Shown: positions 4,462 through 60,026 of the stretch, in pieces
How the letters are laid out: each line of letters starts with the position of its first letter
How positions within the stretch are numbered: the stretch's first letter is position 1
Assembly (NCBI GenBank): GCA_029237695.1
Contig: CM055271.1
Span: 32,980,462 to 33,044,461, forward strand
Source: Conchocele bisecta
Lineage: Eukaryota > Mollusca > Bivalvia > Lucinida > Thyasiridae
Length of the DNA: 64,000 nt
Direction of reading: 5' to 3'
The notes under the pieces: model-generated
What the model was told of the DNA's origin: nothing
Seen by the model: the letters and a program-made list of their open reading frames with translations, nothing else
The model's database searches: none
Program-made: the position numbers and the translations under genes

Positions 4462-4654
4462 TATGGAGCCCGCTCAGGGGACTTATAATTCTTTTTTTTA
4501 TTTGGTTCCCTCGAAATAACAATTCGTCCCATTGTTATATCGTGGTAACGAATTGTCATTTTGTGCCAATGAATTGTTAATGTGAGGGAACAAATTGTTA
4601 ATTCGGGGGAACGAATTAATAAAATAAAATCCACGCCCCCTGCGGGGCTCCATA
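4462..4654. mobile_element. M1: 21-bp-array foldback, short
   Basis: Ends TATGGAGCCCGC and GCGGGGCTCCATA. The inner arms contain a few TTCGTTCCC/GGGAACGAA units with mismatches. Confidence 0.85.
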
Positions 4655-13858: not shown

Positions 13859-14100
13859 TTAGCTAGATTTGAACATGTCACACAGGAGCCGCTCGATTGG
13901 GATGGCGCCGATCGTGCGGCGGAAGAATATTTCCTCGATGGCGCGCGGGCTCACGGTGCGCAGGCTCGGGAGGAGAAGCAGCAGCTTGCCGAAGCGGACC
14001 TTGCTGGAGGGGTGGGTCGAGTAGATGTAGTCAGTCAACATCACCTGTGCCTGGTCCTGTAGCATGTCTACTTGGATGTAGTCGCGCAGTCCCTTCACTT
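13859..14100 (-). CDS. Coding exon 7: C-terminal ligand-binding domain, AF-2 and stop
   Basis: The acceptor CACATTGTAG precedes 14100 and TAA ends the frame at 13861-13859. The exon encodes residues 504-582. [13 protein letters not shown] is followed by [14 protein letters not shown], the helix 9-10 block shared by NR2 receptors, then [11 protein letters not shown] and the terminal LLCDMFKSS. The terminal helix is short and lacks a strong acidic AF-2 core, as is known for the repressive TLX and PNR receptors. Confidence 0.97.
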
Positions 14101-17100
14101 CTACAATGTGGAATGAAAATGGGAAAGGGTTTAACGACTTCTCAGCAATAGACAATACAATGATGACATTTTGACCGTTCGGCGACCATCTTGGATGACC
14201 TAATGACTCAATTTTGTATAAATAGGCATCCTCGATTAGTGTCTGGCACATAAAGGCAAATGTATATAAGAGAAGATGTTGATGAAATTGTATATAAAAC
14301 TTAACGCCGCAATTGTGACCACGAATGGTGTCAGATCGATCGCTCATCAATACCTTTGATTTGATATAATAAACACGACTACATTCGGGGAAAAATTAAA
14401 TTTACCCCCTATCCCCCAAGCCATGCACATGTTGACAACAGCGTCACAAATAAGAAAGAGCGTCTCTGCTCTATCATTCCTATAAAGTATCGCCAACATT
14501 TGTTCATCAGCTCGTGAGAAGATTTTTTAAGAAGGTGCGCTCTTTGTTAGATAACGGCCATCTTGGATTATCTGACGACTCTATTTTCTCAAATCTGAAT
14601 ACACTTTACCCAAGGATCATCACTGCGAAGTTTGGCCAATATCGATCGGTCAAACGGACCTTTCGGTTACCATTTTGAATGACCTAATACTCTGATTTAG
14701 ACAGAACTTTCACCAAGGCCGTCGTCCTGTCGATACCATCGACATTATATGACCATATTCGGTCATAACTGCAACTTGACCCCGCCGGGCCACACCCATT
14801 TGTGACCCCAGGTTAACCATGTAATAACAATGTATGCAACGCCAAATCTACATAAACTCAAATAATTAATGCTAGCTCTAAATAGAGATAGAATTAAATA
14901 TTTAGAGCTACATGTAGTTCCAAATCATTTGGAGAACTCTCTAAATCATTTGGAGCTAGTTGTAAATATTTAATGCCAGCTTTTAGAGATAGCAATAATT
15001 ATTTGACTTTCCATACACTTGAGTGTTGGGCTCAGGGGCCCGTTTCACTAAACTTCGTACAACTAAAATGTTCGTAAGTGCAAATTTAGGATCGTCTGTA
15101 AATTCAATTGATGTATATGCAGCCTATGCTCAATAAATGTAAATTCAATAATTGTTTACAACAAAGCATTACTAATGTGAACTTTACATACTATCATAAT
15201 TTTGCAATTACGAACATTTTAGTCGTATGAAGTTTAGTGAAACGGGCGCTTGTGGTGAAGGGGTAAACACCAGCGCTTTCAATGAGGGAACGTGACAATA
15301 GTTGTAAATTAATGAAGCTCTCACCCGATTTAAACAACACGAGTGCCTTCAGACAGGCGAACTCGGTGGAGTCGACTCGCATAGACACGAATCTCGCAAT
15401 CACGTCCTGCAGCGTCTTCAGGTGCATGGCGAACAGCATGCTGCGATCTGATTGGTCGGTCATCGAGTACCCGCATGCCAATAGCAACGAGCCTGCAGAC
15501 AATAAAATAGTACACAATGGGGGAACGCTTTAGCTGATTCATACGGAACGAATTAATAAAAAAAATCCATTTTTTTTATTAATTCGTTCCCACGAAACAA
15601 CAATTCGTTCCCTCAATTTAACAAAACGTTCCCTCGAATTAACAATTCGTTCCCACGATATAACAATTCGTTCCCTCGAATTAACAAATCGTTCCCACGA
15701 AATGACAATTCGTTCCTTCAATTCAACAATTCGTTCCCTCGAATTAACAATTCGTTGCCACGATATAAAAATTCTTTCGCACGAATTACCAATTCGTTCC
15801 CACGGAGAACGAATTGTTAATTCGTGGGAAGGAATTGTTAATTCGTGGGAAGGAATTGTTAATTGAGGGAAGGAATTGTTAATTGAGGGAAGGAATTGTT
15901 AATTGAGGGGAATTGTTAATTGAGGGAAGGAATTGTTAATTGAGGGAAGGAATTGTTATTTCGTGGGAACGAATTAATAAAAAAAAGAATTCTACGTCCC
16001 CTGTGGGGAATCTGACAAGCTTTATAGATACAATACATTTCGTCCATCGTCTGAGAAAAGGTACCTTATGGTGTGAGCCCCACCCTCACCACCCCACCCC
16101 ACCCCACCCCGAACAGTATGTGCACCTACATAGTTTGATCAGGGGCTATGACAGACACTAACTTGACTTCCTGCCGTCGGAAAATGTATTAATTAACCAC
16201 CATGTGTTATAAAGCCAACGGCCACCCCCCTCCCCTCCACACACCCCCCCCCCCCCCGCTCCCTCCCTCACACACACCCACCCACAAACCCAGTACTGCA
16301 TTGAGGTCCACTTACTCATGAACTATATGCGCTCAGTCTTTTTCTGAGAATGCAGGAAATGACGTTTCAGACCACCTGGATTTTCTGGGGTAGCACTATT
16401 ATCTGACTTTGGGGCATCGAAAACTCACACCCCTTCAAACATATCTACTTACTAACGTCTATCGGCAGCGACCATTGTGCAGCACTGAGTATGAACAGCT
16501 CGCTCCACGATTCCTCCAATAGGATCGCCTGGTCACGGAACGGAAGTGTGAGGAATGACGGGATATTTCGCGCCCATTTTATTGTCATAAACAGAAGTTT
16601 CGCCGCGGTTTCGTACGTCGTATCGAGGCGACTGCTTGTGTATGGCGTGTTGTCAAGTCGCTCGCCAGCCGGCGGATAGAGCGTGCTCATGTTGAATAGG
16701 CTGTTGCTGGGGATGTAGCCCGACCGGTAGCTGGCGTAATCATCGGCGGAGGAAGTAACGGTTGACGTCACCACGGGGCTGCTGCTTCTTGGTGGGTCGT
16801 GGCGCACTGAAACACAGGTATAGTCGGCATATAGATATGAGACAAGAAATGTGAGTTTCTATTAGATGAGGGGAAAATAAATTGCTGCCGACGAACATTT
16901 GGCCATTAAACACATTAAATCTAAAAAATATTTAAAAGTAAGTACTTTTTCATCAATAACAAAAAATTCACCCTCCACAAAAAAATAAATATTGATTTTA
17001 TTGCGAAAAAAAGATCTTCCTATGGGGATTTAACATGGGTAGTCAATTTTTTCGTTTTTCCAAAAATTGGAAATTGACTCCGAAACCTGGTGAGATAGCT

Positions 17101-23100: not shown

Positions 23101-26100
23101 AATATGTTTCATAAATTCAGTCAAAAGTCAGAAAATATAATTGTAAATTTTGTAAACGTATTTCATGAAATTACGCAGATGTCCGAAGGTACAAAATCAC
23201 ATGGCGTGCGTCATCTGAGACCAGACATGTTATTTTGTACCTTCGGATATGTACGTAATTTCATTAAATACGTTTACAAAATTTACAATATGTTTCATAA
23301 ATACAGTCAAAAGTTTACAAATCTTTCAGAGTACATGCGTAATTATATTCCGCATGTACTCTGAAAAATTCGTCAACTTTTGATGCCATTCACGGAAAAT
23401 ATGGTAAATTTTATAAACGTATTTCATGAAATTACGCAGATGTCCGAAGGTACAAAATCACATGGCGTGCGTCATCTGAGACCAGACATGTTATTTTGTA
23501 CCTAAGAAGATGTGCTTTTCAGGAACAATATTTACGGAAACTGTGATGTTTTCTGTTTAATGACGCCGAAATTTGACGAACTGCGTACAGCGATTGCGGA
23601 ATCAATCATCTACGTTCGACGTCAGTTGCGAACAATAATATATATTTTGTAATTATTACACAACTGCCATCATAATTGATCAGTTCCGGAAATACGCTTC
23701 AAATCGAAAACAATTTCTTTCTAAATCACCACTAATTTGTTTATTTTAATTATCATTGTATACTTTGTGAAGCGCATATAAATTTAGAATGATGTACGTA
23801 TATAATAACAACAGTGCCAAAGGTCACAATATACACCCGTCGAGGCAAGGCCAGTCAACAAGGGGAGATAAGTAATTGAAAGCCAATAGGGTTCTTCATC
23901 TTGCCTTGATAAACATGTATACTGAATTTGGTTATGATCAGTCAAGTAAAACTTGAGTTATTGCGTGGACAAGGATACAGACTGCAAAAAATAAAACTGG
24001 CCGCCAAGGGGAAATAAGTCAACGGAAATTATGAACACTGCGTCAATTTGCAACATCATTTACCAAAATATGGTAAATTTTGTAAATTTAGTTCAAGAGA
24101 TATCGCATATCTTCTTTGGTACGCAATCACATGGCTCGTCTCATATTGAATATCTGAGAAATTATCTGAGACATTATGTGAGACACGGTGCCTAATATCA
24201 TACTTGTGTAACCTCGAACGCTGGTTGTCTTACAATGTATCACGTTTGGCTCAATACGTAAACACGATCCGCAACTACCGATATAAAGGTTTCTATTAAA
24301 ATGAGCCGAATTTTACTTTAATGATCTCTTATCCCGCGCTTGCCGCTACTTCCCGCTACTTGTGGTTAAGTGATTGAGAAGAAACCGCGACAGAAGCACC
24401 CTCCAGCGGCGATGGGAATTGATCTCTATGCCTCTCCAGGGCCCATACACCGGTCTGGAGTGGCCCAGGAACGTGCATTAACGCATCTCGAGATTCCCCT
24501 CGTGGACAAGGGCGACGTTTGGGCGAATTATCCAAATAAACGTCCATCAACTCGCGGAGTGTAAGTTGTTATCAATCAAAGGCGATTGGTGAGAGTTATA
24601 ATGAGTGGTTTGGTTTCATTGATTGGGTCACGAATACTCGCGCGCCGACATCGCCCATCTACGGTGCCCCGCAGGGGACGTAGAATTCTTTCCTGCTTTA
24701 TTAATTCGTTCCTACAAAATAACAATTCGTTCCTTCAATTTAACAATTCGTTCCCACGAATTAACAATTAGTTCCCACGAATTAACAATTAGTTCCCATG
24801 AATTAACAATTCGTTCCCTCAATTTAACAGTTCGTTCCCACGAAATAACAATTCGTTCCCACGGGAATAAATTGCTAATTCTAGGGAACGAATTGTTATA
24901 TCGTGGGAACGAATTGTTAATTCGAGCGAACGAATTGTTAAATTGAGAGAGCGAATTGCTATTTCGTGGGAACGAATTAATAAAAAAAAATCTATGTCCC
25001 CTGCCGGGCTCCGTACCAATCGGATCTCCGACTATAGACGCGATACTCGAGTTGTATATTATCTTAATTTATACTAAGAGTACGGTGATCAGTTTAGGCC
25101 ATATACTATTGCTATTGGGTCGATACAACGTAGCACGATAGCACGATAACGATAGTACGATATCACGATACTACGATGGCGATAATACGAAGCCACGATG
25201 ATAGTACGATAGCACAAGTCAATGAATGCATACAAATTCATACGCAGATGCAAACGCCCCCAAACATTATAAAATGCATTTCTGTTCGAAAATGTGGTTC
25301 AAAATGTAATAAATAGGATACTCCGTCGTCTCTGTTTGAATAGCTTGAAATAATACACTCGTACTCGACGTACACTCGTGTATATTATTTCATGCTATTC
25401 AAACATATACGATGGAATATCTTCTATATATCTGGATGTAAAATGTCCTGTTCCGTACACCACCGCGATCTTTATAGATCTTACTAATACACGATAACGA
25501 CGTACAAATCACCGCGTGTATTAGTCAAAGTATATGATCACGTGGTTACAACAACAACAACAAGTACTGAAACTTCCAGAAGCCCTCCGACTCAAAGTAC
25601 GTATTCTTTAATTGTATCCTTATCATGTAACGGATTTTTATGAAATATGGCGCATCAAACGCGTCTTGTTAAGCTGCATTTGGTGGTCTCGGTACTTTGG
25701 CCCAAACGTCTGTCGTTTGTTTGCGAAGAATCGATTTCCGTATCTACTGACATTGAAATCGATTATTTGCAAAAACTACATAAGTATGTGCCGAACTCCC
25801 GGGACCACCAAATGCAGCTCATGAAGACGCGTTTGCTGCGCCATATGTCATCAAAATCCGTTTCCTATTAAAGAAAATATCAAATAATACTTACTTGGGA
25901 GTGGGCGCGCTTTCAACACTTTCAGCCATTGTTTTTGTTGTTGTAACCAGGTAACCACGTGATCATGCACCTTGCTAGTTATGCTCCGTGAAGTACCTAC
26001 CATCTTTATTCATGCTCACGTCCAGACATTTCTTGAACCTGCAGGCCTGGCACTGGTTTCGTCGGGCGAGGTCGACGGTACAGTTGCCGCTCTCCTTGCA

Positions 26101-29100: not shown

Positions 29101-32100
29101 AAAGTCTGGCAAGGGGTTAAAGAGATATTGTGAAAAACCAATAACTTTAAAGCATTCCTGTTACAAAACCGTTGAACATTACAAGTAAATAAATGACCTT
29201 GACCTTCACAATTTGGATGTGGGGGTGTGCGTAATGAAGCATCATCCCTAGACAAACATTGATGTGAAATATTATCAAAGTCTGGCAAGGGGTTAAAGAG
29301 ATATTGTGAAAAAACAATAACTTTAAAGCATTCCTGTTACAAAACCGGTGAACATTACAAGTAAATAAATGACCTTGATCTTCAGAATTTGGATGTGGGG
29401 GTGTTCGTAATGAAACATCATCCCTAGACAAACATTGATGTGAAATATTATCAAAGTCTGGCAACGACGACGGAAAAAGCGACGACGACGACGGAAAAAG
29501 CGCCGACTATAGTCGCACCTCTGCTAAAGCAGGCGCGACAAAAATGGGTATAACCAGATTTAACTGTCACATACAATAATGCCAACGACGTACGTGAGGG
29601 CCAAACCAGAGGGCAGTCACTAAGCTTCGTACGACTAAAATGTTCGTAAGCACAACATTATGATAGTCTGTAAATTGCTCATTAGCAGTGTTTTCTTGTA
29701 AACAATTATTGCATTTACATGTATTGAGCATAGGCTGCATATGCAGCCTATGTTCAATAAATGTAAATACATCAATTGAAATTTACAGACGATCCTGAAT
29801 TTGCACTTACGAACATTTTAGTCTTAACAAGTTTAGTGAAACGGGCCCCAGGTCTCCTGTCGGTATTCCGGTAATAATGAACCCCGATCGTTAAATTACC
29901 TATCGCATGCTCCCACCTGCCACCCACCTGACTTTATAGAATATGACCTTTAGTTTCAAATGTAGTAGCATCATACATGTGACTGCATATCAATATAAAG
30001 TATATCCGCCATTTTAGTTTGTACATGCTATCAGACAGTTTGCATCACTTGTAGCGTTTGACACATACAACAAATAATATGGCAGAAAATCGAATGCAAT
30101 TTGGTGCAATACGTCCCAGATATATATGACGATAAAGTCCTATAAATACACAAAATACAGACTACACAAAAAAAAAGATAGTTGAGCTTTTCTATCATCA
30201 CTCACAAAATATACAATGGACCCTTTTCAATGGGTAAAATGTCAAACTGATGCACTGTATATTACTAGAAGTACATCTGCCACAAGCAAATACTTATTTA
30301 CTCGCATAGTAGGCAAGTAAACGATGGCCGACATGGCAACTGCATACACCGTGTAGGCTATAGTGAGAACAGAATATTCACATTTATTATATACCTACCC
30401 ATGAAATACATAGTTATACGATGTAAATACAAGTCGTATGTTCTCATCGATGAAATAAACAACTTCCGGTGAAAATACGACTACTTCCGCTATCTATATT
30501 CATAACGCGCACCTGCAGTGCCGGACTGCAAATAGGCTGCAAACACACATTCTACCGTATACAGTCTAAAAAAAACAGCTAATTTCCGTGGAGCGGTATA
30601 TAATAAATAGAATATTCATATTTTTGCAACGAATATGACATATATGTTCATCTCGTGGTGTGACATGTCCATAGTTCACTCGTGCCTAACGGCACTTGTG
30701 AAATATGGACATTCCACACCACTCGATGAACATATATGTCATATTCGTTGCAAAAATATGAATATCCTCTATGTAATATATGTTATGTATATATTCCAAC
30801 ACATTTACGAAGCAATTATGCATGAATCATAGGATGATCCGGGGTTTTCTAATGTTGTCTCTAGAATAGGGAATACGAGGCTCGTTTATTATAGGAATGA
30901 ATGGCCTTTTTGTGGAATTTATCGGGGTATACACTTGGAAAAGTCGCGGGAATACTGGACGAAGGCCGGAAGGCCTCGTCCAGTATTCCCGCGACTTTTC
31001 CAAGTTTATATCCCCGATAAATTCCACAAAAAGGCCATTCATTCCTTATAATTCCAGCATTTGAAATAAATTCATCAAGAAAATGTGTTTATTTTCCGTT
31101 TTCTTAAGAATTATTTTAACTGCGCCTCACGGTTACGGAAAGTAGTTCGGCATGGGAGTTTACTGGGATATAAATTTTGGACAGAGACTTGCTACGGGCC
31201 AATCAAATGTTGGGGAATTTTGTAAATATTTTTGTGCTGGAATTATCAGGCAATGCATACGTAGAAAAGGTGAAAGTGGAAATGGGTTTTACGTACCAGC
31301 AACAGTTAATATCATATAGAGACGGGACCATCGTTAACAGTCTCATCCGACAGACCAGCGGGATGGAAATACAATGTTAGAATGTTTCACAACTACGATG
31401 AGGATTGAACTCACAGCTTTCAATAATGAAGTCCAATACAATATCCCCTAGGCCACGGCCCATCCCTGAAATACGTAGGAATTCATACCGTTTCAGGGAC
31501 GAGTCTGGGGGCCGTTTCACTAAACTTCGTAAGACCAAAATGTTCGTAAGTGAAAATTTAGAATCGTCTGGAAATGTCAATTGATGGATTTACATTTATT
31601 GAGCATAGGCTGCATATGCAGCCTATGCTCAATAAATGTAAATCCAATAATTTGTTTCAAGAAAACATTGTTAATGTGGAATTTACAGACTATCATAATT
31701 TTGCACTTACGAACATTTTAGTCGTACGAAGTTTAGTGAAATGGCCCCCCAGGTGTACTAGAGTGTCCTTTCATAAAGAATACCAGACTACTGTCTGTTT
31801 CACGAAAGCTGCCCAAATGTTACGGCTATATAAACAATTCAAAAACAAGATTTCTTTTGATAATATTAAATTAAAGGAAAAATTAAGAATGAGCCTTCTT
31901 TTTATTTCGTGAAATTTGGTCAAATATTGATTTTATTTCGAAAACAAAATTTCCCCATGTTAAATCCCCATAGACATCTTCACGGAGTGTCTCTATGGGG
32001 ATTTAACATGGGGAAATATTTTTGAATTTTAGAAATACTGGACCGATTTTTAAAATTTAACTTTTGTTTTATTAGTTAGATCATATCCAAGCTATCTAGT

Positions 32101-35100
32101 CAGGTTTCGGAGTCAATTTCCAAATTTTTTCGTTTTTTTACTAATCCCACACTCCTTTACCTCTTTTTCCCCCATGTTAAATTCCCATAGACAAATCAAT
32201 TTTTCGTAATAAAACCAATATTTGACCGAATTTCACGAAATAAAAAGAAGGCTCATTCTTAAATTTTCCTTTAATTTAATATTATCGAAAATAATATTGT
32301 TTTTGAATTGTCTATATAGCCGTAAAATTTGGACAGCTTTCGTGAAACAGACAGTAGTGTCTTTAGTTACCATGCCTTAGATGTACATGCCCGCTCATTA
32401 GGCGCAAACTGCTCTTTATAGGAATTAAATCAGGTAGTTTTGTATATTAAGTAGATATGAAATTTTCTGGCAAAATAAACATTTATTCACCATTACCCCA
32501 CGTATTGATTGGCATTATTATACATTTAAATCAGATGTAAATGTCCACACAGATATCAGGGGCGATAACCGTGTTTCCTTAAAATGTTAACGGACATTAC
32601 TATTTATTCTCTGTAAATATGTTTTTATCTGCAATGATCATACTTTATAATCTGCCGAAAATATTATTTTTTCAGGTGTCGCATTTAATTAGTATAAATA
32701 ATTAAAAATAGCGTGCCTCATTTGCATATGAAAATAGCCTGATACCACCGCGAGTCACTATCAGTAAAATAAATAGCGACACAATTATACACTTATGTAA
32801 TTCCCATAAAGAACAGTTTGTACCTACTGCATGTATCTTTAATATCAGGCAAACTTGGAAATGCGTACGAGTTCCACAGCTCGTTGAGGGACCGAGCCTG
32901 TAAAAGTTATGTCAAGACACTAGCATGGTATTTTGGGGGGGTCAAAAAATCAGAACGGAATATTTACATAGAGAAAAAATGTATTCAGCTCTGAAATTTG
33001 AATAAACTGACCTGGTGCCAGGTCCATACCACCCCAAAGTCACTTTTCCCCTTCCCCTAAAATAGGATTACGAATAATCGTAATACTTACATAAGGGATA
33101 TAACACATTCAACTGTCACATACTAAATGTCAAAGACGTATGTGAGGGCCAAACCAGGGGCCCGTTTCACTAAACTTCGTACGACTAAAATGTTCGTAAG
33201 TGCAAATTTAGGATCCTCTGTAAATTTCAATTGATGGATTTACATTTATTGAGCATAGGCTGCATATGCAGCCTATGCTCAATAAATGTAAATCCAATAA
33301 TTGTTTACAAGAAAGCATAATTAATGTGAACTTTACAGACAATCACAATGTTGCACTTACGAACATTTTAGTCGTACGAAGTTTAGTGAAAAGGGCGCCA
33401 GGTCTCCAGTCATGATTCCGGTAAGGATGAACTCCGATTGTTAAATTACCCATCGCTTGCTCCCACCTGCCACCCACCTCTAAACCGGACAGAACGATAT
33501 GTTAGTTGTACTTAATTTTGCCATTTACATCCAATGATAATGTATGTTCATGATCGCAAAGCATCCACGCGTTTCTTGAAATAGTCATCTGTCTGTTTTA
33601 CAGTGGAAAATCTCTAAACCCGACACACTGGGGACCTCCCAGTGTGTCTGGTTTAGAGATGTTCCACTGTAACAGGGTTCCTTGAAAAGAACGCAGACTT
33701 GTTCACGCTGTGTCACTACACCGATACTATTCGGTAGTGGCATGTGACGTCGGTCAACCAATGAAACGCCAGGGATAGTAGTTTTGAATCGCTGTGACCC
33801 GGATGTGGGTATAATCTAGTGAATGCGGGATACGATCATTATATGTAGTTATCATTCAGTGTGTAGCAGGTCAATGCAAAGCTTGCTACCTGATAAAATG
33901 CATTTATGCGCGCAAAAACATGTGGGTTGTGGTTTATGAATGTGTGATGTTTCATGAAACTACATGGATTTCAAAGGGTGTTCAAGTTCGGGGGGCCGTT
34001 TCACTAAACTTCGTACAATTAAAATGTTCGTAAGTGCAAATTTAGGATCGTCTGGAAATTCCAATTGATGGATTTGCATTTATTGAGCATATGCAGCCTC
34101 TGTTCAATAAATGTAAACCCATTAAATACTTACAAGAAAACATTGTTAATGTGAAATTTACAGACTACCAAAGTTGTCACTTACGAACATTTTAGTCGTA
34201 CGAACTTTAATGAAACGTCCCCCGGGTACGAACAAGACTGTTACAGCGGCGGATGAGGCGGCACCGGAACGACGTCAAATCCGTACTAGCGCCCGACTTA
34301 CACTATCTTATATACATTACAAACAAACAAGAAAACTGAATAATACATGTACTAATTAATAATTATACAAACCTAAAACACGAGGCAAACAATTTCACAA
34401 GCTCGCACATGACCAGTCACGACAAAAATGGCTTATTAACCTGTGTTTCATTATCATACAATTGAATTTCTTATATTTAAGGGTGGGAAATGGCTCGAAG
34501 ACCTTCCATACCCGGGCATGTGCCCGTAAATGATCAGGCCAATGGCCGTTGTCCCATTTGTTTCCGAATTTACTAATATATGCGATACAGTCGAAATATG
34601 TGCATTAAATGAAGGAGACGATGAGGCGGTGAGTTTAACCTAATTAGTTCATTCTCCTATTGCACAATGCCGATATGTCAGACCGTGAAGAAGGCCGAGT
34701 GTGCGTGCACATGATATATGGATACTCAGCCGTTGCATTGTTATATTACCTGCTAATGCTATTAGAGGGTTGGACGAGGCAAGACAGACCAAGCAGAGAC
34801 GGATCCACGTGATATGGACAAATCCAACGCCCACAGACGAGCAACAGCGCAGGCTCATTATCATAACACATCATTGAAGCTTTATACCGATTTACCTACC
34901 CTAGTTTCTCGACCAATGAAAGAACGGCACTTTGTCTCAATTAATCGCATATTGCGACGCTTTCGCAAATATGTATTAAATTAATGATTAAATGTTCAGC
35001 GCTATATTTAGAACTGATTGTATGCATTGTTGTCATCAGTTCACGAGACTCAAAGCATATTACCGCCCACACACGCTCTCACTTCGTTTCACACAGCCAA

Positions 35101-38100: not shown

Positions 38101-41100
38101 TGATAATGCAATGCAGAAAACATAACTAGAAATTCTGCTTTTGTACGATTCGTGGTTACTAATTAAAGTTTATTGGAATTAAAATAAATTTAGCCTATGC
38201 CTGAGTAGTAATTATATTTGTAAATGTGCCAATATCACAGAAAATGCAGTTTGGTTCACAAATTGTATTTGGTTGACTGTTTGCATAAGAGAAAATAAAT
38301 AAGTGTCCATAAATGGAGGAATTTTTTTTTTATATCCATCTGAAATATCTAATGATACACAATGCTTTTCACATGCAAGATATAAAGGTTGTTTTTTTTT
38401 AAATATTTTTTCCCAAATGTTTGCTAGTGTAGCAGTATTTTATTATTTTATTATTTTTTATCGAATCCGCAACGAAACATTCCAACATGCCAGTCTGTAT
38501 TAATTAGCAGAATTAATTAATTATAACTATAATTACTAAAACAATCACCTGTATTAAAACGTGAAGATGGGTCCAAATTGATAATATCCAACATATTGAC
38601 ACAGAACTGTCCCTTGTATAACCGCTCAACTATATTCTCCAAACTGGATCCCCCGTCAACGATCATAGAATCCTCACCTTATTCTGGGGGGGAGAAAACA
38701 TTGTCATCGGTTCACAGGAAAACGTACCTGTTTACATTTGCTACCAGCGTGGACCCAGATCAGACTGCACATCTGTGCAGTCTGATCTGGGTCTACGCTG
38801 GTTGCAATATATGTATTGTATTAATATTAAAACGCCGTGAAAAAACGGGTATTCCCGGATACTGCGCGTATGTGTCTACACTTTTGATAGGCTGGTTTTA
38901 AAGAAACATAATTTTTGAGTTTTCGCGTGTGCACCTTCATATTATGTTGCTATGAAAGATTAACGTATTGCGCAAAGATTATGTTTTTTAAGGTAAGTCA
39001 ATTGACTTACTATGCAGCAGATTATCATTATCCACCGCAGAACAGGTGATCAAACTGAGATAATCCGCGTTTTTTTCTTTTTTCTGTGTGCAAGCGTGAT
39101 CTTGTCACGATCTGACGTTTGACGTTATAACCACGGGCCGTCGCGGGAATCAAACTGCGAGTTCATTCGTTTTTTTTTCGTCTGGAAACTGCTCCCATGG
39201 CTTAATGATTGGAGACAAATCTGGTGACGATGTTCGCAGATATTTCGTCACAAAAAAAATCTACGGACTTTGATTTGGTTGCCAGACAGGTGGGGTTATG
39301 GGAATCAAACTGTAGTGTGTTTTTCTTTAACAGTTTTTTTTATTAATTCGTTCCCACGAAATAACAATTCGTTCCCTCAATTTAACAATTCGTTCCCTCG
39401 AATTAACAATTCGTTCCCACGAAATGACAATTCGTTCCCACGATATAGCAATTCGTTCCCACGAAATGACAATTCGTTCCCTCGAATTAACAATGCGTTC
39501 CCACGAAATGACAATTCGTTCCCACGATATAACAATTCGTTCCCACGAAACGACAATTCGTTCCCACGATATAGCAATTCGTTCTCACGAATTAACAATT
39601 CGTTCCATTGGGAACGAATTGTTATTTCGCGGGAACGAATTGTTAAATTGAGGGAACGAACTGATAATTCGTGGGAACGAATTAATAATAATAAAAAAAA
39701 GTATACGTCCCCTGTTTGCTGACTTGATTGTAGGAACATAAAACATAGTTTAAATATTGTTTCTTGGCGAAAGTGGCCGAAATTAAAGGTACATGCCCAC
39801 TCAGTAGGCACAAACTGTTCTTTATGTGAATTAAATAAGTGTATAATTGTGTCGCTATTCCACCAGTTCTAAGAATTACGAGTGCCCGTTATTCAGATAT
39901 AATAATTTAATAATATGTATTTTACTGATAGTGACGCGCGGTGGTATCGGGCTTTTTTCATATGCAAATTAGGTATGGTATTTTTAATTATTTATACTAA
40001 TTAAATGCGTCACCTAAACAAATAATATTGTTGACAGATTATAAAGTATGACCATTGCACATCATAAAATATATAGAGAATAAATATTAACGTCCGTTGA
40101 GTATTTTAATGAAACATGGTTATCGCCCATGATATCAGTGTGGAAATTTGCCTCTGATATAAAATGTATAATACTGCCAATTAATAGGTGGGGAAATAGT
40201 GAATGAAAGTTGATTTTGCCAGGAAATGTCTCTGATGATGTCTCTGATATAAAGAACATTTTGTGCCTACTGAGTGGGCATGTACCTTTAAGACTTGTGT
40301 GTCTTGTTTTTCCTCCAGAAACGTCTAAATATGTAGGGTGGGTTGCAAATCACTGGTCTGTTCGGCCCAAAATTTACGACCTTATAAACAATGCAAAAGC
40401 AATAGTTTTCTCTATAATATTGAATCATGATTATAGCACAATTTAAAAATGAGCTTCTTTTTATTTCGTGAAATTTGGTCAATTATTGATTTTATTACGA
40501 AACATTGATTTATCTATGGGAATTTAATATGGGAGAATAGGAGGTGGATGAGCTGGGGGACGAGTAAAAACACGGGGAAAACATGGAAACTGACTCCGAA
40601 ACCCGGTTAGATAGCTTGAAAATCTGTTCACTATAATTATTTCTGAAATTCGGAAAATAAATCCAGTGTTAAATACCCATAGACATGGAGATTCAACATG
40701 GGTAAATTGCTTTTTTCGTAATAAAATCAATATTCGACCAAATTACACGAAATCAAAAGAAAGCTCCTTCTTTATTTGGATAAAACAAAATGTATTATTA
40801 TCCATTTTTGTTTTCAATTTTGGGCAGGTTTCGTGAAGCAGTAGGAAGGGTCGGGTTGCTCGCACCGCAGGAAACAACATAGAGAATAGTGGTAGGTTAC
40901 TGCCGTGAATGGGAAAAATATCTGACAAGGCTTAGGAAACGGGATCTGCCTCGCCCATCCCATTTCCGTGCCGCGTCAGATATTTGTTCCCTTTCACGGC
41001 ACTAACACTACACATAGCTTTAAAATGCAACAAAAATAACCCAGCCGCATTGTCAAAATCGGAGTATGACAACCGCACATATTGATACGCAGTGATTAGG

Positions 41101-44100
41101 TCGTATAAGATATCAAACATGTTTCACAGTACCGTGTTTCACGGCACATACGCACAGTGTTGACAGGATATTAAAAACACATCATGTAATTAAACATTGC
41201 AAGGGTTAATAAACCCTTATGTAATATATTCATTAATAAATGATATTGCGCATGAACGGGTGACGTAACTTACGTCATAAGCCGGACCAATAACGACATA
41301 ATGGCGACCAACAATTGCCCATTACCCGAGCGATTGCCAGAAGGTCAGCAAATCTACATAGAATATTTGAGTCAAGCCATGTGAGTTTGTACCTAAGAAT
41401 GTGTGACATCTCATAAAAAATATTTATAACATTTACGATATATTCCGTAAATGCCGTCGAAAGTTGATAAAATGTTCAGAGCAAATGCGGAATAGGATTC
41501 CACATTTGATATGAAAATTTCGTCATCTTTGTACGTCACTTACAGAAGATATCACAGTTTTTGCAAATATTTTTCATGAAAAATCGCACATTTTCTTAGG
41601 TACAAAATCACGCAGACTGTCTATAATTATATAATGAGTCAGAAAAGTCAAAACAATAAATGATCTCGTGGCTTATAGGGTCCATCTTACGGAGCCCCGC
41701 AGGGGACATGGATGTTTTTATTAATTCGTTCCCACGATATACCAATTCGTTTCCTCCATTTAACAATTCGTTCCCTCGAATTAGCAATTCGTTCCCACGA
41801 TATAACAATTCGTTCCCTTGAATTAACAATTTGTTCCCACGAAATGAAAATTCGTTCCCTCAATTTAACAATTCGTTCCCTCGAATTAACATTACGTTCC
41901 CACGATATAACAATTCGTTCCTACGAATTAACAATTCGTTCCCGTGGGAACGAATTGTTATTTCGTGGGAACGAATTGCTAAATTGAGTGAACGAATTTT
42001 TAATTTGTGGGAACGAATTGTTAAATTGAAGGAACGAATTGAACGAATGTTAAATTGAAGGAACGAATTGTTATTTCGTGGGAACGAATTGTTAATTAGT
42101 GGGAACGAATTGTTAAATTGAGGGAACGAATTGTTATTTCGTGGTAACAAAGTGTTTATTTCGTGGGAACGAATTTATAAAAAAAAAAATTCTACGTCCC
42201 CTGCGGGGCTCCGTACCATCGGGGTGATGAATTTACGCCTTTCACGAAGTCGAAACGCAATAACGCGATATTATCATTTCACGTTTTCGCTTTGACACCG
42301 TTCGACCAATGAAAATACCGTTTCTAACCCAGATATTCGTATCCGGTTAATGCGTATGAATAAGTACGTATTCGGCCAATACAGAGCTCGTTACTTGAAG
42401 CATTAACGCTTTGAACCCGAAATCCCGCTATAGCCGTTTATGCAAACAGTGCAGATCCAGATGAGCCGGCTCGTAACGAGCCGTCTCATCAGGATCTGCA
42501 CTTTTTGAAAGTAATTTTCATATTTTTGAGAACAAAAATATCAAAATCCATTCCAGTTACTTAGGGGTGAAAGGGTTAATATATGGGTGTGCCAGCATTA
42601 TAATGTGTTCTAGTTGTCCGTGTTTCCCGTGAAAGAAGAGATGGAGATCACGTGACCCCCAGTGTTAAGTGTAGCAGAAGTCAAACGGTAATCATTGGTC
42701 ATCAATGGTCATCATTGAACGAAAACATGCAACAGTTGCATAAATAATGCCCAGATTAAAGATTAAACACTCATCCGATTAGGTTTTATTATTTAACTCC
42801 CGAACGTGTGTCCCAACCGCGAAAATGGACACAACAAACACGGCTTATAACATTTTCAGTTTAAGCAGATTTTGTTGAACATCCAGCGTCACGTCAAGGC
42901 ATGCGCTATGAGTGGCGGATCCAGCATTTGGGGAACGGGGGTTGTTTAGTTGCGATGATAACTCTTGCAATCTACTCCCACACCAGCTAGCTACGGACGG
43001 TACGGAAATAATTGCCAGAGTTACCGTTCGAAACTAGGGGTTGTCCTATTTTTTAGCTCTTCGATATTCACTTTCCTGTGTTTTTCGGCATTTAAATTCA
43101 GACTCCAACTGGTGGTAAACTGTGATCTATGTAAACTCCGTGGCTGAACGGGGTGGGGGTGCAACCCCGGAAACCCCACCCTCCAGATCCGCCCCTGGCT
43201 ATTCGTTTACAGGACTTCATAGGTGACGATTATGATCAGGCCGTTCTGATTCACATGCCAGCCCGAGTCTACACCGGCCATTAAGACAGTCAGCTCAATT
43301 GTGTCCAGTGTTGGTAAAATCCGTGGATTGAAGTTGTTTGGAAGCGATCTGGTGTTTTGTCCCGATTGTGTTAATAGTTGATCCCGTTTTGGGGGTAACT
43401 GTTGAGCCAGTTTGTGTGTTGTAAGTACCTCCCGAACAATGGCATTAACTCCAGATTAAAGGTACATGCCCACTCAGTAGGCACAAAATGTTATTTATAG
43501 AAAATAAATAAGTGTATAATTGTGTCACAATTCCACCGGTTCTAAAAATTACGAGTGCCCGATATACAGCTAAAATCATTTAGTACTATTTATTTTACTG
43601 ATAGTGACGCGCGGTGGTATCAGGCTATTTTCATATTCAAATGAGGCATGATATTTTTTAATCATTTATACTAATTAAATTTTAATGAAACACGGTTATC
43701 GCCCCCGATATCAGTGTGGATTTGTCTCGATATAAAATGTATAATAATGCCAATCAATACGTGGGGTAATAGTGAATGAATGTTTATTTTGCCAGAAAAT
43801 GTCTCAGATGATGTCTCTGATATAAAGAACATTTTGTGCCTACTGAGTGGGCAGGTACCTTTAATGCATTATTTCATATAGAACAAATTTCTGTTTATAA
43901 TTGATGATTAAAATTATATAGCCTTCACATGCTTTTTTGATTACATTACCACAACCATGGTTTTGATCTTATTACTCCCCCAAAATATACTTAGCGATGT
44001 TGGTGAAATCGGCTACAGTGCCGGACTCATTTGCGTCGCACCATTCTTAACACGGGGCTTGTTGACTTTTCTACGAGTGACCTACATATCGTGACCTTAT

Positions 44101-47100
44101 AGACCATGTGACACTAGGTCCTGAATTGGCCATTGAGTTCCGCCACCCCCTAATTGGTATTAAATTCGTATTATATATAAATCATGAATTGTTATTCTGA
44201 ACATCAGGGGACCGTTTCACTAAACTTCGTAAGATTAAAATATTCGTAAGTGCAAATTTAGGATCGTCTGTAAATTTCAATTGATGCAGCCTATGTTCAA
44301 TAAATGTAAATTCAATAACTGTTTACAAGAAAACAGTGTTAATGTGCAATTTACAGACTATCATAATGTTGTACTTACTAACATTTTAGTCGTACGAAGT
44401 CGTACGAATGTTCGTAAGTGAAAATTATGATACTCTGTAAATTTCATATTAACAATGTTTTCTTGTAAACACTTATTGGATTTACATTTATTGAGCTGTG
44501 ATAATGTAATAAATTCAGTATAATAATTATGCATTCTTTTAATCATTAAATATATGCAGTCGTTAGTTCTATATGAAATAATGTATTTCGGGAAAAATAA
44601 ATGATTACTCCCTCAAAGTATATTTCGCTAGATAAGTATACTTTGCAATGTTGGTGAAATCGGCTACTGATATTCACATATCTGCGAAAAAATCATGCAT
44701 TTTTGTCAAAATTATAGTAAAATAAAAAATGCAGGTGTATGTTTGTAAACAGTAAACTACTGTCTGTTTCACTAAAGCTGCCCAAATTTTACGGCCATAT
44801 AAACAATGCAAAAACAATATTTTTTTCGATAATATTAAATTAAAGCAAAATTTAAGAATGAGCCATCTTTTTATTTCGTGAAATTTGATCAAATATTGGT
44901 TTTATTACGAAAAATTGATTTCTCTATGGGAATTGAACATGGGGGAAAAAGAGGTAAGGGATTGTGGGAGGAGTCAAAAAACTAAAAAATTTGGAAATTG
45001 ACTCCAAAACCTAGCTAGATAGCTTGGAAATGATCTAACTAAGAAAACAAAAGTTAAATTTTAAAAATCGGTCCAGGATTACTGAAATTCTAGAAATGTC
45101 TATGGGGATTTAACATGGGGAAATTTTTTTCCGCAATAAAATCAATATTTGACCAAATTTCACGAAATAAAAAGAAGGCCAAAATGCCGACTATATCACG
45201 CTTTCCGCAAGCGGGCGCGACAATGATGATAAACACCCATGTGAAGTATCAATGTAATGGGTGAAGCAGTTGCAGAGATATAGTACACGAAAAAACTTTA
45301 ACAAAAAAATTCAAAGTAATTTGACCTTGACATTGGGCACAGGGGCCGCACGGTTGGGGGGTAGAATGAAAATATGGATGATGATAAACACCCATGTGAA
45401 GTTTCAAGGTAATGGGCGAAGAAGTTGCAGAAATATAGTATAACGAAAAACTTTTAACCAAAAAACTTTAACCAGACGTACGTTAAAAAGTTAACGTTGA
45501 AAATCGCTAACGCTATTCGGAAAATTAAAAAACTTTTTTAATTTGTTACTGTTTTCGATATGCCACGGCTTTCCGAAAACGAGCGAAATCAGGCAATTGG
45601 GATGCTTGCGGTTGGGATGGCCGCCAGGGCGGTCGCGCCTCGGTTTGGTTGCTGTCGGAAGACGATTGATCGTCTTGCAGCCCGGTACCAGCAGACTGGG
45701 GCTGTTCACGACCGGCAGCGACCTGGTAGGCCTCGTGTAACGACGGCTAGAGCCGATCGTTACATTACGTTGACGCACTTACGTCAACGTCGATTGGCAG
45801 CCACAGTCACTGCTAGGCGATAAGGTGTCTCAGGGCAGACCATTCGCAACCGGTTACGTCGTAACGCCCAACCAATCCGGGCACGCCGCCCGTACACTGG
45901 TCAGATAATGACCCAACGTCACCGTGCTGCCAGACTGTTATGGGCGCGACGTCATCTGAACTGGAGAAGGGCTGACTGGAACCGAGTTTTATTCACCGAT
46001 GAATCTCGGTTCACAGTTAGTCATGCTGACGGAAGATTACGGGTATACAGGCGTAAAAATGAAAGATTCACCGATTGTTGCATTGTTGAGAAGAACAGGT
46101 TTGGGGGAGGGAGCGTAATGGTCTGGGGTGGGATCATGGGAAACCGGAAGACAGATTTGGTTGTTGTACAGGGCAACATCACTGCACAACGTTATGTTGC
46201 AGATGTGCTAAATGCACATGCCTTACCATTTATCCGTCAGCATGGTCCTGGTGTGACATTGATGCACGACAATGCCCGCCCTCACGTAGCCAGGGTCACC
46301 ACTCAATACTTACAGCAAAACAACGTCGACGTCATGCCATGGCCCGCGGTCTCCCCGGATCTCAATCCCATTGAGCACATATGGGATGAGCTGGGCTGCA
46401 AAGCACGAGCTAACCATCAGATTGACAATGTTCGCGATCTTACACGGGCGTTACAACGGGAATGGAGGAATTTGCCCAACGCACTGGTATTGCGTTACGT
46501 CACGTCGATGCGGCGTAGGATCATTGCATGCATTCATGCAAATGGTGGCCACACTCGGTACTAACGAGATTTACTGAATTTGCCACATTACTTATTGAAA
46601 TTCCATCTCTAAACATTAAGTAACACATTTCTGAGTTTTTGTGATTTTTGATTTTGACCCCTACCGCCCTTGGCCGGTTATCTCTCGAATATTTAACAAG
46701 ATATCCAAATGCAATTTATTGGCTTTGATACAGAAATGAATGAACTTGTTTTTCCATTTTGATTTTTAAAAGTAACCCTTTTGGTTTTTGATGAATCTTT
46801 CCTTAAACATGGAGGGACGTTTCTAGTTTTGCTCAGTATAGAAATAATAGGTGAAGGTAAAAAAAATGGTCACATGTTGGATAGTTGTACGTGGTAGGCA
46901 CCCCTTGGTTATGAAGCTATGAAAGTTTGGTGTTCCTAGGTGGTACAGTACCAAAGAAATGGACTTAAACACGAAAACTTAACATTGTAAATGCGAAAAG
47001 TTAACATTGAAAATGGCTAAGTCGAATGCGTGGAAAAAATGGGTCAAGTTAAAAACAAGAAACGAGGCAAAGCCACGAAGGCCAGGTTTTTTCCAAGCAT

Positions 47101-50100
47101 AGACACTTGGATAGCATAATTATACCCACTTTTTGTAGACTAGATGTCCGTGGCCTGCATGTCGCGCCTTGGGGCGAGGCAAGGACACTAAAAAAATAGA
47201 TATAGTAGATGGAAAAACTTTAACCAAAAAACTTTAACCGGACACACTGACGAACGGACGGACGTATGCCAAAATGCCGACGATATCGCGCTTTCCGCAA
47301 GCAGGTGTGACAATGATGATAAACACCCATGTGAAGTATCAAGGTATTGGGTGAAGCAGTTGCAGAGATATAGTACACGAAAAAACTTTAACAAAAAAAT
47401 TTAAAGTAATTTGAACTTGACATAGGGCACATGATCGCGCTTTCCGCAAGCAGGTGCGACAATGATGATAAACACCCATGTGAAGTATGAAGGTATTGGG
47501 TGAAGCAGTTGCAGAGATATAGTACACGAAAAAACTTTAACAAAAAAATTCAAAGTAATTTGACCTTGACATTGGGCACAGGATCGCGCTTTCCGCAAGC
47601 AGGTGCGACAATGATGATAAACACCCATGTGAAGTATCAAGGTATTGGGTGAAGCAGTTGCAGAGATATAGTACACGAAAACAACTTTAACAAAAAAATT
47701 CAAAGTAATTTGACCTTGAAATTGGGCACAGGATCGCGCTTTCCGCAAGCAGGTGCGACAATGATGATAAACACCCATGTGAAGTATCAAGGTATTGGGT
47801 GAAGCAGTTGCAGAGATATAGTACACGAAAACAACTTTAACAAAAAAATTCAAAGTAATTTGACCTTGACATTGGGCACAGGATCGCGCTTTCCGCAAGC
47901 AGGTGCGACAATGATGATAAACACCCATGTGAAGTATCAAGGTATTGGTGAAGCAGTTGCAGAGATATAGTACACGAAAACAACTTTAACAAAAAAATTC
48001 AAAGTAATTTGACCTTGAAATTGGGCACAGGATCGCGCTTTCCGCAAGCAGGTGCGACAATGATGATACCCACCCTGTGAAGTATGAAGGTAATGGGTGA
48101 AGCAGTTGCAGAGATATATACACGAAAAAACTTTAATTTAACAAAAAAATTCAAAGTAATTTGAACTTGACATAGGGCACAGGATCGCGCTTTCCGCAAG
48201 CAGGTGCGACAATGATGATAAACACCCATGTGAAGTATGAAGGTATTGGGTGAAGCAGTTGCAGAGATATAGTACACGAAAAAACTTTAACAAAAAAATT
48301 CAAAGTAATTTGACCTTGACATTGGGCACAGGATCGCGCTTTCCGCAAGCAGGTGCAACAATGATGATAAACACCCATGTGAAGTATGAAGGTATTGGGT
48401 GAAGCAGTTGCAGAGATATAGTACACGAAAACAACTTTACAAAAAAATTCAAAGTAATTTGACCTTGACATTGGGCACAGGATCGCGCTTTCCGCAAGCA
48501 GGTGCGACAATGATGATAAACACCCATGTGAAGTATGAAGGTAATGGGTGAAGCAGTTGCAGAGATATAGTACACGAAAAAACTTTAACAAAAAAATTTA
48601 AAGTAATTTGAACTTGACATAGGGCACAGGATCGCGCTTTCCGCAAGCAGGTGCGACAATGATGATAAACACCCATGTGAAGTATCAAGGTATTGGGTGA
48701 AGCAGTTGCAGAGATATAGTACACAAAAAAAACTTTAACAAAAAAATTCAAAGTAATTTGACCTTGACATTGGGCACAGGATCGCGCTTTCCGCAAGCAG
48801 GTGCGACAATGATGATAAACACCCATGTGAAGTATCAAGGTATTGGGTGAAGCAGTTGCAGAGACATAGTGCACAAAAAAACTTTAACAAAAAAAATCAA
48901 AGTAATTTGACCTTGACATTGGGCACAGGATCGCGCTTTCCGCAAGCAGGTGCGACAATGATGATAAGCACCCATGTGAAGTATCAAGGTATTGGGTGAA
49001 GCAGTTGCAGAGATATAGTACACGAAAACAACTTTAACAAAAAAAAATCAAAGTAATTTGACCTTGACATTGGGCACAGGATCGCGCTTTCCGCAAGCAG
49101 GTGCGACAATGATGATAAACACCCATGTGAAGTATCAAGGTATTGGGTGAAGCAGTTGCGAGAAATATAGTACACGAAAAAACTTTAACAAAAAAATTCA
49201 AAGTAATTTGACCTTGACATTGGGCACAGGATCGCGCTTTCCGCAAGCAGGTGCGACAATGATGATAAACACCCATGTGAAGTATCAAGGTATTGGGTGA
49301 AGCAGTTGCAGAGATATAGTACACGAAAAAACTTTAACAAAAAAATTCAAAGTAATTTGACCTTGACATTGGGCACAGGATCGCGCTTTCCGCAAGCAGG
49401 TGCGACAATGATGATAAACACCCATGTGAAGTATCAAGGTATTGGGTGAAGCAGTTTGCAGAGATATAGTACACGAAAAAACTTTAACAAAAAAAATCAA
49501 AGTAATTTGACCTTGACATTGGGCACAGGATCGCGCTTTCCGCAAGCAGGTACGACAATGATGATAAACACCCATGTGAAGTATCAAGGTATTGGGTGAA
49601 GCAGTTGCAGAAATATAGTACACGAAAAAACTTTAACAAAAAAATTCAAAGTAATTTGACCTTGACATTGGGTACAGGGGCCGCACGGTTGGGGGTTATA
49701 ATGAAAATATGGATGATGATAAACACCCATGTGAAGTTTCAACGTAATGGGCGAAGCAGTTGCAGAGATATAGTATAACGAAAAAGTTTTAACCAAAAAA
49801 CTTTAACCAGACGTACGTTAAAAAGTTAACGTTGAAAATGGCTAAGTCAATTACGTAGAAATAATAGGTGAAGGTAAAAAAATGGTCACATGTTGGATAG
49901 TTGTATGTGGTAGGCACCCCTTGGTTATGAAGCTGTGAAAGTTTGGTGGTCCTAGGTCTTAAACACGAAAACTTAACATTGTAAACGCGAAAACTTAACA
50001 TTGAAAATGGCTAAGTCGACTGCGCGGAAAAAATGGGTGAAGTTAAAAAAAAAGTAACATGTTGGATAGTGATATGTGGTGGGCACCTCTTGATTAAAGC

Positions 50101-54078: not shown

Positions 54079-54400
54079 AGGTGCATGATCACGTGGTTAG
54101 AACAGCAACAACAATGGCTGAAAGTGCTGAAAACGCGCCCACTCCAAAGTAAGTATTTTTTTAATAGGATTTTGATGAAATATGGCGCAGCAAACGCGTT
54201 TTCATGATCTGCATTTGGTGGTCCCGGGAGTTCGGCCCATACGTATGTCGTTTTTGCGAAGAATCTATTTCCGTGGCTGTAGACACGGAAATCGATTCTT
54301 CGCAAAAACGACAGAAGTTTGGGCCAAAGTACCGAGACCACCAAATGCAGCTTAACAAGACGCGTTTGATGCGCCATATTTGTTATTTTACCGTATCAAG
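54079..54400. mobile_element. Foldback element D4, truncated
   Basis: The left arm contains ATGGCTGAAAGTGCTGAAAA and CCAAAGTAAGTATT. The right arm stops after GATGCGCCATATTTG. Confidence 0.88.
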
Positions 54401-58643: not shown

Positions 58644-59740
58644 TGGTCATCTATACAATCCACTGAAATACGGATTCCATGCCCCTTATAATGGCCCATT
58701 CACACCGTTACCACACCCACCCACTTCTATAGACTATACATCGATGTCACTGGTGCTGCACTTCGCGCCGGCGTAAAATGCTTCACGTCTAGAAATGCAC
58801 CGGTTTCCTGGCGAGATGCCACTCATCTCACTCTATTTTAAGCTGTCGCACAAACGCATTTGTGTCGAGTAACCGGCGAAAATTTTTTCCACCGGTTACT
58901 AGACGGACATACGTTGTACGGGCGGACGGACGCACAGGCACTGTTTGTCCAGTCCACGCAATAACTAGAATTGAACTTGACGGATCGTGACCAAATTCGG
59001 TGTACAAGTTTACCACGGTGAGATGAAGAAGCCTATTGATTTTCAAAACAATCCAATGACTTATCTCGCCCTGGCGGCCATTTTTAATTTTCCCACTCTT
59101 TATTCTTGTCCACGCAATACCTCAAGGCCTACTTGATGGATCTAAATATATTCGAGATACGGGAAGACGAAGAACCCTATCAATTTTAAAAAATATCGGA
59201 TGATCCATCTCCCCAGTCTATATACTTGTTCACGCAATAACTAACGTTCTAATGGACGGATCGCAACCAAATTCGGTATACATGTTTATCACGGCAAGAT
59301 GTTGATGACTTATGTTGTAGGAAAATGACATGTGTTATAGGAAAATGTTGTTTTTTTCGCAATAAAATCAATAGTTGATGGAATTTCATCAAATAAATAA
59401 AATTGGAGAGGGTGATTTTTTTTGTTATTGATGAAAACATACTTACATAAAATATACTTTAGATGTAATGTGCGAAGCGTGGAACAGACAGTAGAGTTCT
59501 ACATGACGGATCATAACCAAATTTGGTACATGTATACGTTTGTCATGGCAAGAGGAAGAACCCTATTGCTTTTCAGAAAGTTATCTCCCCTATTGACTGG
59601 CATTGCCTCGACGTACCTCGATATTGTGACCTTCGACACACTTGTTCAATTTGCGTATTGTTTTTCACGTTTTAGTTTCTGAGAGGTATACCCATCAGCG
59701 TTACTGAGTATTGTTTTCATGGAGTTACCCCCCCCCACAC
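58644..59740. other. Dispersed repeat remnants
   Basis: Blocks such as CACGCAATAACTA, GACGGATCGTGACCAAATTC and GACTTATCTCGCCC recur here and at 23870-24030 and 37165-37280. They belong to a diverged, probably once-tandem family. A C-related half copy is at 59335-59497. Confidence 0.6.
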
Positions 59741-59742
59741 AC

Positions 59743-59842
<100 letters not shown>

Positions 59843-60026
59843 ACACACCCCCCCCCCCTCCCCACACACACACACACCCATGTGCTGGCTACACCTCAAC
59901 TGGCGTATATTGCGACATTCGGCACTCGTGTTAAAATAAAACCATTTTGTTGCAAATGGGGGTAGTCTGAACATCGTCTTGTGATAATTGGATCGGTCGG
60001 AAAGTAACATATCGCGGTTCATTCCA

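Follow-up and report, generated by a model that had tools for sequence, protein, structure and literature searches.

The M family, of which five related copies lie in the 64-kb stretch of DNA analysed here (hereafter the window), is likely a non-autonomous IS3EU-type cut-and-paste transposon that has adopted the foldback plan. Its two arms are different higher-order arrays, which we call types I and II, and are not mirror images of each other. Inverted arms built of variable-number arrays are the known plan of foldback elements (Tm1, FB, Galileo, Tetris); what is new here is an IS3EU-type foldback and the organization of its two arms as different higher-order arrays.

Each M copy consists of two facing arrays of a 21-bp unit, itself made of AATTCGTTCCC and a 10-bp linker, laid out as end, short T-rich stretch, array, a turn of a few bases, reversed array and inverted end (Table 1). 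Neither a gene nor a middle region was seen between the ends, only the two facing arrays. In the window, the unit core CAATTCGTTCCC was found 68 times with at most one mismatch (0.38 expected), and the 18-bp end five times with at most three mismatches, as against 0.01 expected from shuffled sequence. As a preliminary description of this DNA had stated, the number of units differs from copy to copy and from arm to arm, and the linkers are of few kinds, most of them sorting into five classes (a, b, c, d and e). The overall plan that it had set out is likewise recognisable in all five copies, but both ends are intact only in M1, M3 and M5, the only copies with a GGAGCCC-type end on both sides; M2 is devoid of the last 7 bp on its right side, while M4 has no left end and stops on its right side after CCCCTG. 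M3 is inserted in the orientation opposite to M5. The strands of M1 to M5 fold back on themselves into a long hairpin, the single-strand fold of M5 reaching -194.5 kcal/mol (z = -25.4 versus shuffles). The 18-bp ends of M5 are an exact inverted match, and the likeness continues, with mismatches and gaps, through the sub-end and the arrays.

Table 1. Positions in the window of the five M copies and of the component parts of M5.
Feature	Position	Strand	Description
M1	4462..4654	+	Complete, short and diverged, 193 bp, TATGGAG..CTCCATA
M2	15542..16008	+	End-damaged; left arm with type I class order
M2 left end	15542..15591	+	TACGG followed by a 22-bp inverted copy, without mismatches, of the sub-end next to it; gap of 2 nt
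M3	24660..25015	+	Complete, 356 bp, TACGG..CCGTA; left arm type II, right arm type I
M4	39334..39714	+	End-damaged; 12 classed units in left arm, 3 in right arm
M5	41688..42215	+	Complete, 528 bp, TACGGAG..CTCCGTA; arms of type I (left) and type II (right)
M5 left target duplication copy	41682..41687	.	6 bp, CCATCT; 5/6 versus right copy
M5 left terminal inverted repeat	41688..41705	+	18 bp, 0 mismatches
M5 left array	41723..41943	+	Type I, with unit classes running inwards as c d e c e b d e c a
M5 turnaround	41944..41945	.	GT between facing units
M5 right array	41946..42175	-	Type II, with unit classes running inwards as b b d a b d d a d b
M5 right terminal inverted repeat	42198..42215	-	18 bp, 0 mismatches
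M5 right target duplication copy	42216..42221	.	6 bp, CCATCG

A scan of the window for TAYGG..CCRTA pairs, requiring 4 or more of 6 flanking bases and 12 or more of 16 end bases to agree, returned M3, M5 and the interval 31821-32324. The last was discarded as a further element, as it lies inside a larger inverted repeat and its apparent ends are probably not ends. Long inverted repeats other than the M copies were seen at 31787-32358, 23175-23515, 54178-54381, 25595-25896 and 16886-17339; the inner sequence TATGGCGCANCAAACG is common to 25646-25845 and 54181-54378, which look like members of one hairpin family. The window also carries three long minisatellite arrays (26876-28487, 28612-29464 and 47285-49800, with units of about 162, 176 and 149 bp, respectively), a 136-bp C-rich homopolymer-like tract (59728-59863), and a 246-aa Tc1-type transposase frame on the + strand (45824-46564), in which DDE_3 scored over the cut-off and HTH_Tnp_Tc3_2 just under it. 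Exons for an NR2E3/NR2E1-like nuclear receptor ligand-binding domain were recognised on the - strand at 13859-14395 and 16445-16858, and M2 lies between them, presumably in an intron. The database protein closest to this receptor, with 85% identity across 82% of the query, carries the label of a Sedimenticola metagenome bin, and looks like animal DNA binned with a bacterium. Published work deals with Sedimenticola and further symbionts of lucinid and thyasirid clams, and the host is likely to be a bivalve. Beside M5, at 42477-42500, lies CGAGCCGTCTCATCAGGATCTGCA, which also occurs just inside the M end at locus L135 (from base 229); since it is found at both places, it probably marks where a different mobile element ends.

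The preliminary description had taken the TA that borders M1, M3 and M5 for a target duplication. TA is indeed present at both ends of these copies, but the element itself begins and ends with this dinucleotide, and the target duplication, of 6 bp, lies outside it. The flanks of M1 (TGATCC and GTATCC) are alike at 4 of 6 positions and those of M3 (CCCATC and CCAATC) at 5 of 6; with those of M5 added, 14 of 18 positions match, a score reached in 2 of 200,000 random trials, the length of 6 bp having been picked after looking, among 11 lengths and 3 offsets. We then turned to a genome sample, which was taken from exact ends listed for the initial 16.5 Mb of contig C1 and was thus not drawn at random. 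Among its 58 complete copies, the 6-bp flanks match perfectly in 21, at 5 of 6 positions in 12, and at 4 or fewer in 25. The mean flank match is 0.70 at 6 bp versus a chance-level 0.17-0.30 at lengths 2-5 and 7-12, and perfect matches at every other length from 2 to 12 combined amount to 4. Four insertions are present twice in this set; after removal of the second copy of each, 54 remain, 20 of them with perfect flanks and 32 with flanks alike at 5 or more positions. Duplications of 8, 9 or 10 bp matched at chance level, with none of the 58 copies perfect, and one copy (L026) shows a perfect 5-bp match instead of a 6-bp one. Within the first 42 copies, 25 have flanks alike at 5 or more positions, and the target of these duplications is S-W-W-W-W-S-like (n = 25). 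The first sample set dropped ends with fewer than 700 bases downstream, so that L015 to L018 remained uncounted; their 6-bp flanks match at 5, 6, 5 and 1 positions, respectively. For two-ended copies reached through arrays without an exact end, 3 of 8 match at 5 of 6 positions and 5 of 8 at 0 to 2. At L136, a 127-bp copy (bases 201-327) has lost nearly all of one arm, yet its 6-bp duplication, CATTTA, is perfect. A second M right end lies some 690 bp beyond it (to about 1016), followed by the same CATTTATAGCC; it looks as if site and element had been duplicated there in tandem.

The preliminary description had also proposed a search for empty sites, and sites without the element do exist for one insertion, L072, which is flanked by GATATG on both sides and inserted in a dispersed repeat. 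Once joined, the L072 flanks gave 41 matches (40 of 120 candidates scored), 37 of which span the junction, while the remaining 4 correspond to the two filled loci, namely L072 and its duplicate L075. Eight of these 37 were fetched; each is uninterrupted and has one target only, which reads GATCTG in 6 cases and AATCTG in 2. They are relatives of the repeat, with 76-92% identity to it, and are not alleles of the L072 site. For M5, a search of this assembly for an empty site found just its own two flanks.

In the 1.89 Gb genome, the exact 18-bp end occurs 11,554 times and the same pattern read backwards 0 times; ends of the TATGG form number 708, and exact two-unit stretches 77,591 (reversed pattern, 0). 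A very rough extrapolation, based on 41 array clusters (gaps >600 bp) counted by eye in the first 2.99 Mb of contig C1 and assuming an even spread, gives about 26,000 M copies. An array begins no more than 90 bp from the end in 87 of 90 sampled ends (62 of 64 in the first set, 25 of 26 in the second), which, together with the count of exact ends, bears out the earlier proposal of a transposon-like family with conserved ends. Among the exceptions, L010 and L036 carry foreign sequence nested between the end and the array, as does the copy L078. L009, L010 and L013, which at first had the appearance of long elements, resolved into shorter copies or mispaired ends. No partner end was found for 21 of the 64 sampled ends in the first set. 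Looking from the arrays outwards, we took 20 arrays near which no exact end was listed: two recognisable ends were found for 8 of them, one for 9 and none for 3, i.e. 17 of 20 retain at least one, versus 0 of 400 shuffled flanks. Arrays that are mostly borderless, which the preliminary description had named as evidence against its reading, were thus not what we found; one-ended copies such as M2 and M4 are common, given that 9 of these 20 arrays have a single end. The exact end and unit patterns gave 0 matches in viral contigs and in prokaryote genome contigs, and a full-text literature search for TACGGAGCCCC returned matches only under medical titles.

As regards the superfamily, IS3EU families of rust fungi are described as having 6-bp duplications, terminal repeats >30 bp and TAYGG..CCRTA ends (PMC12730594, in the passages cited), and complete IS3EU families as always having TA..TA termini and usually 6-bp duplications (PMC10045372, likewise). 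M1 (TATGG..CCATA) as well as M3 and M5 (TACGG..CCGTA) fit the TAYGG..CCRTA pattern, a rule stated for fungal families with terminal repeats >30 bp, and the 6-bp duplication is found in the window, in the 58 genome copies and at the empty sites. The genome holds at least 150 integrase-core matches to PF24764 (rva_4), which we take to be a marker of IS3EU. At four of these integrase-core loci, no M-like ends occur within the 6.5 kb fetched, and 7 of 24 unusual M ends, each with 4 kb, contain no open frame longer than 171 aa; no transposase linked to M ends was found at these four loci and seven ends.

Three other readings of the family have to be weighed against the IS3EU-type one. That M is a MITE resembling Tc1/mariner or PIF/Harbinger elements and duplicating TA at its target is suggested by the TA at both ends of M1, M3 and M5 and, for Tc1/mariner, by the Tc1-type transposase frame in the window; however, TA duplications would leave the outer flanks unmatched, so that the 6-bp match outside TA in these three copies, and at 5 or 6 positions in 33 of 58 genome copies, contradicts such an origin, as do empty sites carrying a single 6-bp target, and we give it a very slight probability. 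It is less far-fetched, though still unlikely, that the M ends are mobilised by GingerRoot, hAT6 or a superfamily not yet described, in each case one that duplicates 6 bp. GingerRoot, which is related to IS3EU, likewise shows 6-bp duplications and mostly TA..TA termini (PMC10045372, in the passages cited), 6-bp hAT families exist (PMC12730594), and the loci examined yielded no transposase linked to M ends; against this, TAYGG..CCRTA is the pattern stated for IS3EU families (PMC12730594, same passages). Since IS3EU and GingerRoot are treated as one superfamily in the cited part of PMC10045372, this alternative may in part be a mere matter of naming. The family could also be thought of as a satellite or microsatellite spread by recombination, with the ends joined to it by chance, given the 77,591 exact two-unit matches and the 3 of 20 arrays without ends, but ends adjoin an array in 87 of 90 cases, 17 of 20 arrays without an exact end keep a recognisable one, and target duplications and empty sites are present, which leaves this possibility a negligible one.

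The preliminary description knew of no named family with this plan, which does not hold, as foldback elements such as Tm1 have it (PMC3169594, in the part cited). The foldback features found in M are inverted arms made of tandem short repeats, a variable number of units, and a strand that folds back. The FB element of Drosophila has long internally repetitive inverted repeats, each of which can vary in length independently of the other. Tm1, a Mutator/Foldback element of root-knot nematodes, has 13-15 bp units in inverted arms, their number differing between ends and copies as in M, and also has MITE-like forms; unlike M, it has 9-bp duplications, asymmetric 7-bp terminal motifs and a Phantom/Mutator-type transposase (PMC3169594, in the part cited), whereas M shows 6-bp duplications, the TACGGAGCCCCGCAGGGG end, a 21-bp unit and no visible middle region. 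Galileo and Tetris, both from Drosophila, resemble M in having repetitive inverted repeats whose length varies independently at each end, but Galileo belongs to the P superfamily, with a unit of about 210 bp in Galileo F, while for Tetris Mutator has been suggested, with 8-10 bp duplications and a unit of 220 (PMC4079207 and PMC3573991, in the excerpts cited). The tandem repeats of Galileo have been reported to hold secondary transposase-binding sites (PMC3573991, in the excerpt cited). M does not fit the Mutator foldbacks, because 8-10 bp duplications are absent. It shares with IS3EU the 6-bp duplications, TAYGG..CCRTA and TA..TA termini; the TET-carrying IS3EU families, for which terminal repeats >30 bp are stated, encode a transposase, and no IS3EU family is described with tandem-array arms in the cited passages of PMC12730594 and PMC10045372. 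The bivalve pearl family and DTC84 are, like M, small non-autonomous mollusc elements with internal tandem repeats, but these repeats resemble satellite monomers, and facing two-arm arrays are not described in the excerpt of PMC5139131 cited. In the open-licence literature, to which our search was confined, no IS3EU foldback was found described among the titles and opening lines of abstracts listed. Of the 35 papers there that name IS3EU, one (PMC8268682) also contains 'foldback' and none 'fold-back'; a table in PMC8268682 likens two oyster satellites to IS3EU, and in the portion of that article cited 'foldback' appears just in the references.

We then compared the two arms of each copy by the order of their linker classes. 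Type I arms most often end ..c a at the turn, and type II arms most often ..d b. The left arms of M2 and M5 have 9 of 10 classes in common, in order (b or c, then d e c e b d e c a, inwards); the right arm of M3 carries the outer five of these classes, while the left arm of M4 starts b d e and finishes c a. In an ungapped test, the six pairs among these four arms gave p = 0.002-0.078 and the other 22 arm pairs p >= 0.196; in a gapped test of the class strings, the pairs among the left arms of M2, M4 and M5 hold (p = 0.0002-0.008), whereas the right arm of M3 no longer passes. A sample of 44 copies (42 fetched, plus M3 and M5) included 30 with both arms typed, of which 28 are I/II, 1 is I/I and 1 is II/II, the remaining 14 being not fully typed. 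The 28 I/II copies in 44 compare with a null mean of 15.2 (p = 0.0002), the I/II rule having been set after viewing this first sample. Among 16 held-out copies, which include two duplicated insertions present twice and one duplicate of a first-sample copy, 7 are I/II (null 3.75; p = 0.025) and 1 is II/II, typing being incomplete for the other 8. The arms carry 1 to 22 units, are equal in only 5 of 44 copies, and show a size correlation of 0.14.

The arms had been described earlier as symmetric, with growth by slippage or by gene conversion in a hairpin. The long hairpin into which the strand folds would suit conversion that keeps the arms alike, and the right arm of M2 repeats a private 20-bp unit, with the core AATTCCTTCCC present six times there and nowhere else in the window, which indicates that local spread within an arm does occur. 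However, left and right arms belong to different class orders, none of the four own-copy left-right pairs in the window passes 0.05 in the ungapped test (p = 0.198-0.978), and the identity between a copy's own left and right arms (0.825) equals that between shuffled partners (0.825; p = 0.51; 39 copies). As own-copy arms are no more alike than random partners, the source probably had unlike arms to begin with, a difference that hairpin conversion has not erased since. Growth by one-unit slippage, the other half of that explanation, sits badly with the finding that neighbouring units are the least alike: mean identity is 0.775 for adjacent units, 0.802 for units 2-4 apart and 0.809 for those further apart (means, no test), an order expected if whole blocks get copied. 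Taken as a whole, hairpin conversion with one-unit slippage is a very improbable account of these arms.

Duplicates of single insertions show that whole blocks are gained or lost in arms that stay in place. Between L051 and L052 the length difference is exactly 42 bp, or two units; L092 and L094 are 42 + 13 bp apart in their arrays and 2 + 7 bp near their ends; L072 and L075 are 28 bp apart at the turn and 8 + 2 bp elsewhere; and the 6-bp length difference between L010 and L078 lies inside the foreign insert. The in-place differences thus include 42-bp blocks, which, like the low identity of neighbours, argues against single-unit slippage as the main mode. We found no support for purifying selection that would preserve the core of the unit as a binding site, the core showing 0.049 and the linker 0.060 changes per site, with 0.035 for the first six linker bases (57 of 60 21-nt units, each linker compared with its own class, and the right arm of M2 left out).

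The IS3EU-type reading can be put as a sequence of steps. A putative IS3EU-like transposase, acting in trans, would recognise the 18-bp TACGGAGCCCCGCAGGGG ends, and the element would insert at S-W-W-W-W-S-like sites, the insertion and the duplication of 6 bp being themselves observed. The copies probably descend from a source with unlike arms, one of type I (b d e c e ... c a) and one of type II (b d a ... d b). Once a copy is inserted, its arms would gain or lose blocks of units through recombination within the array or through replication slippage, a direction and mechanism that we infer from the present copies, with one block change placed at the palindromic centre. Ends may sometimes be lost, or patched by fold-back repair: the 22-bp inverted copy at the left of M2, with its 2-base gap, has the form of the fold-back templated insertions described at breaks in yeast (PMC11724301, in the part cited).

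It is conceivable, though we consider it doubtful, that this is the first foldback family of the IS3EU superfamily and that its distinct arms have been kept apart across very roughly 26,000 copies, the arms being non-equivalent working parts. If so, transposase might, for example, be loaded onto a left array and a right array that together give the synaptic complex its polarity, and a copy with two like arms would not transpose. Repeated origins of foldback arms, in transposon lineages not related to each other, are proposed in the cited passages of PMC3169594 and PMC4079207, and an IS3EU-type case would extend such arms to a further superfamily. Since the family is abundant and its unit classes serve as markers, growth and loss of the arrays can be read copy by copy, so that the long-standing question of how foldback arms lengthen becomes directly countable, including in duplicated insertions that differ by blocks.
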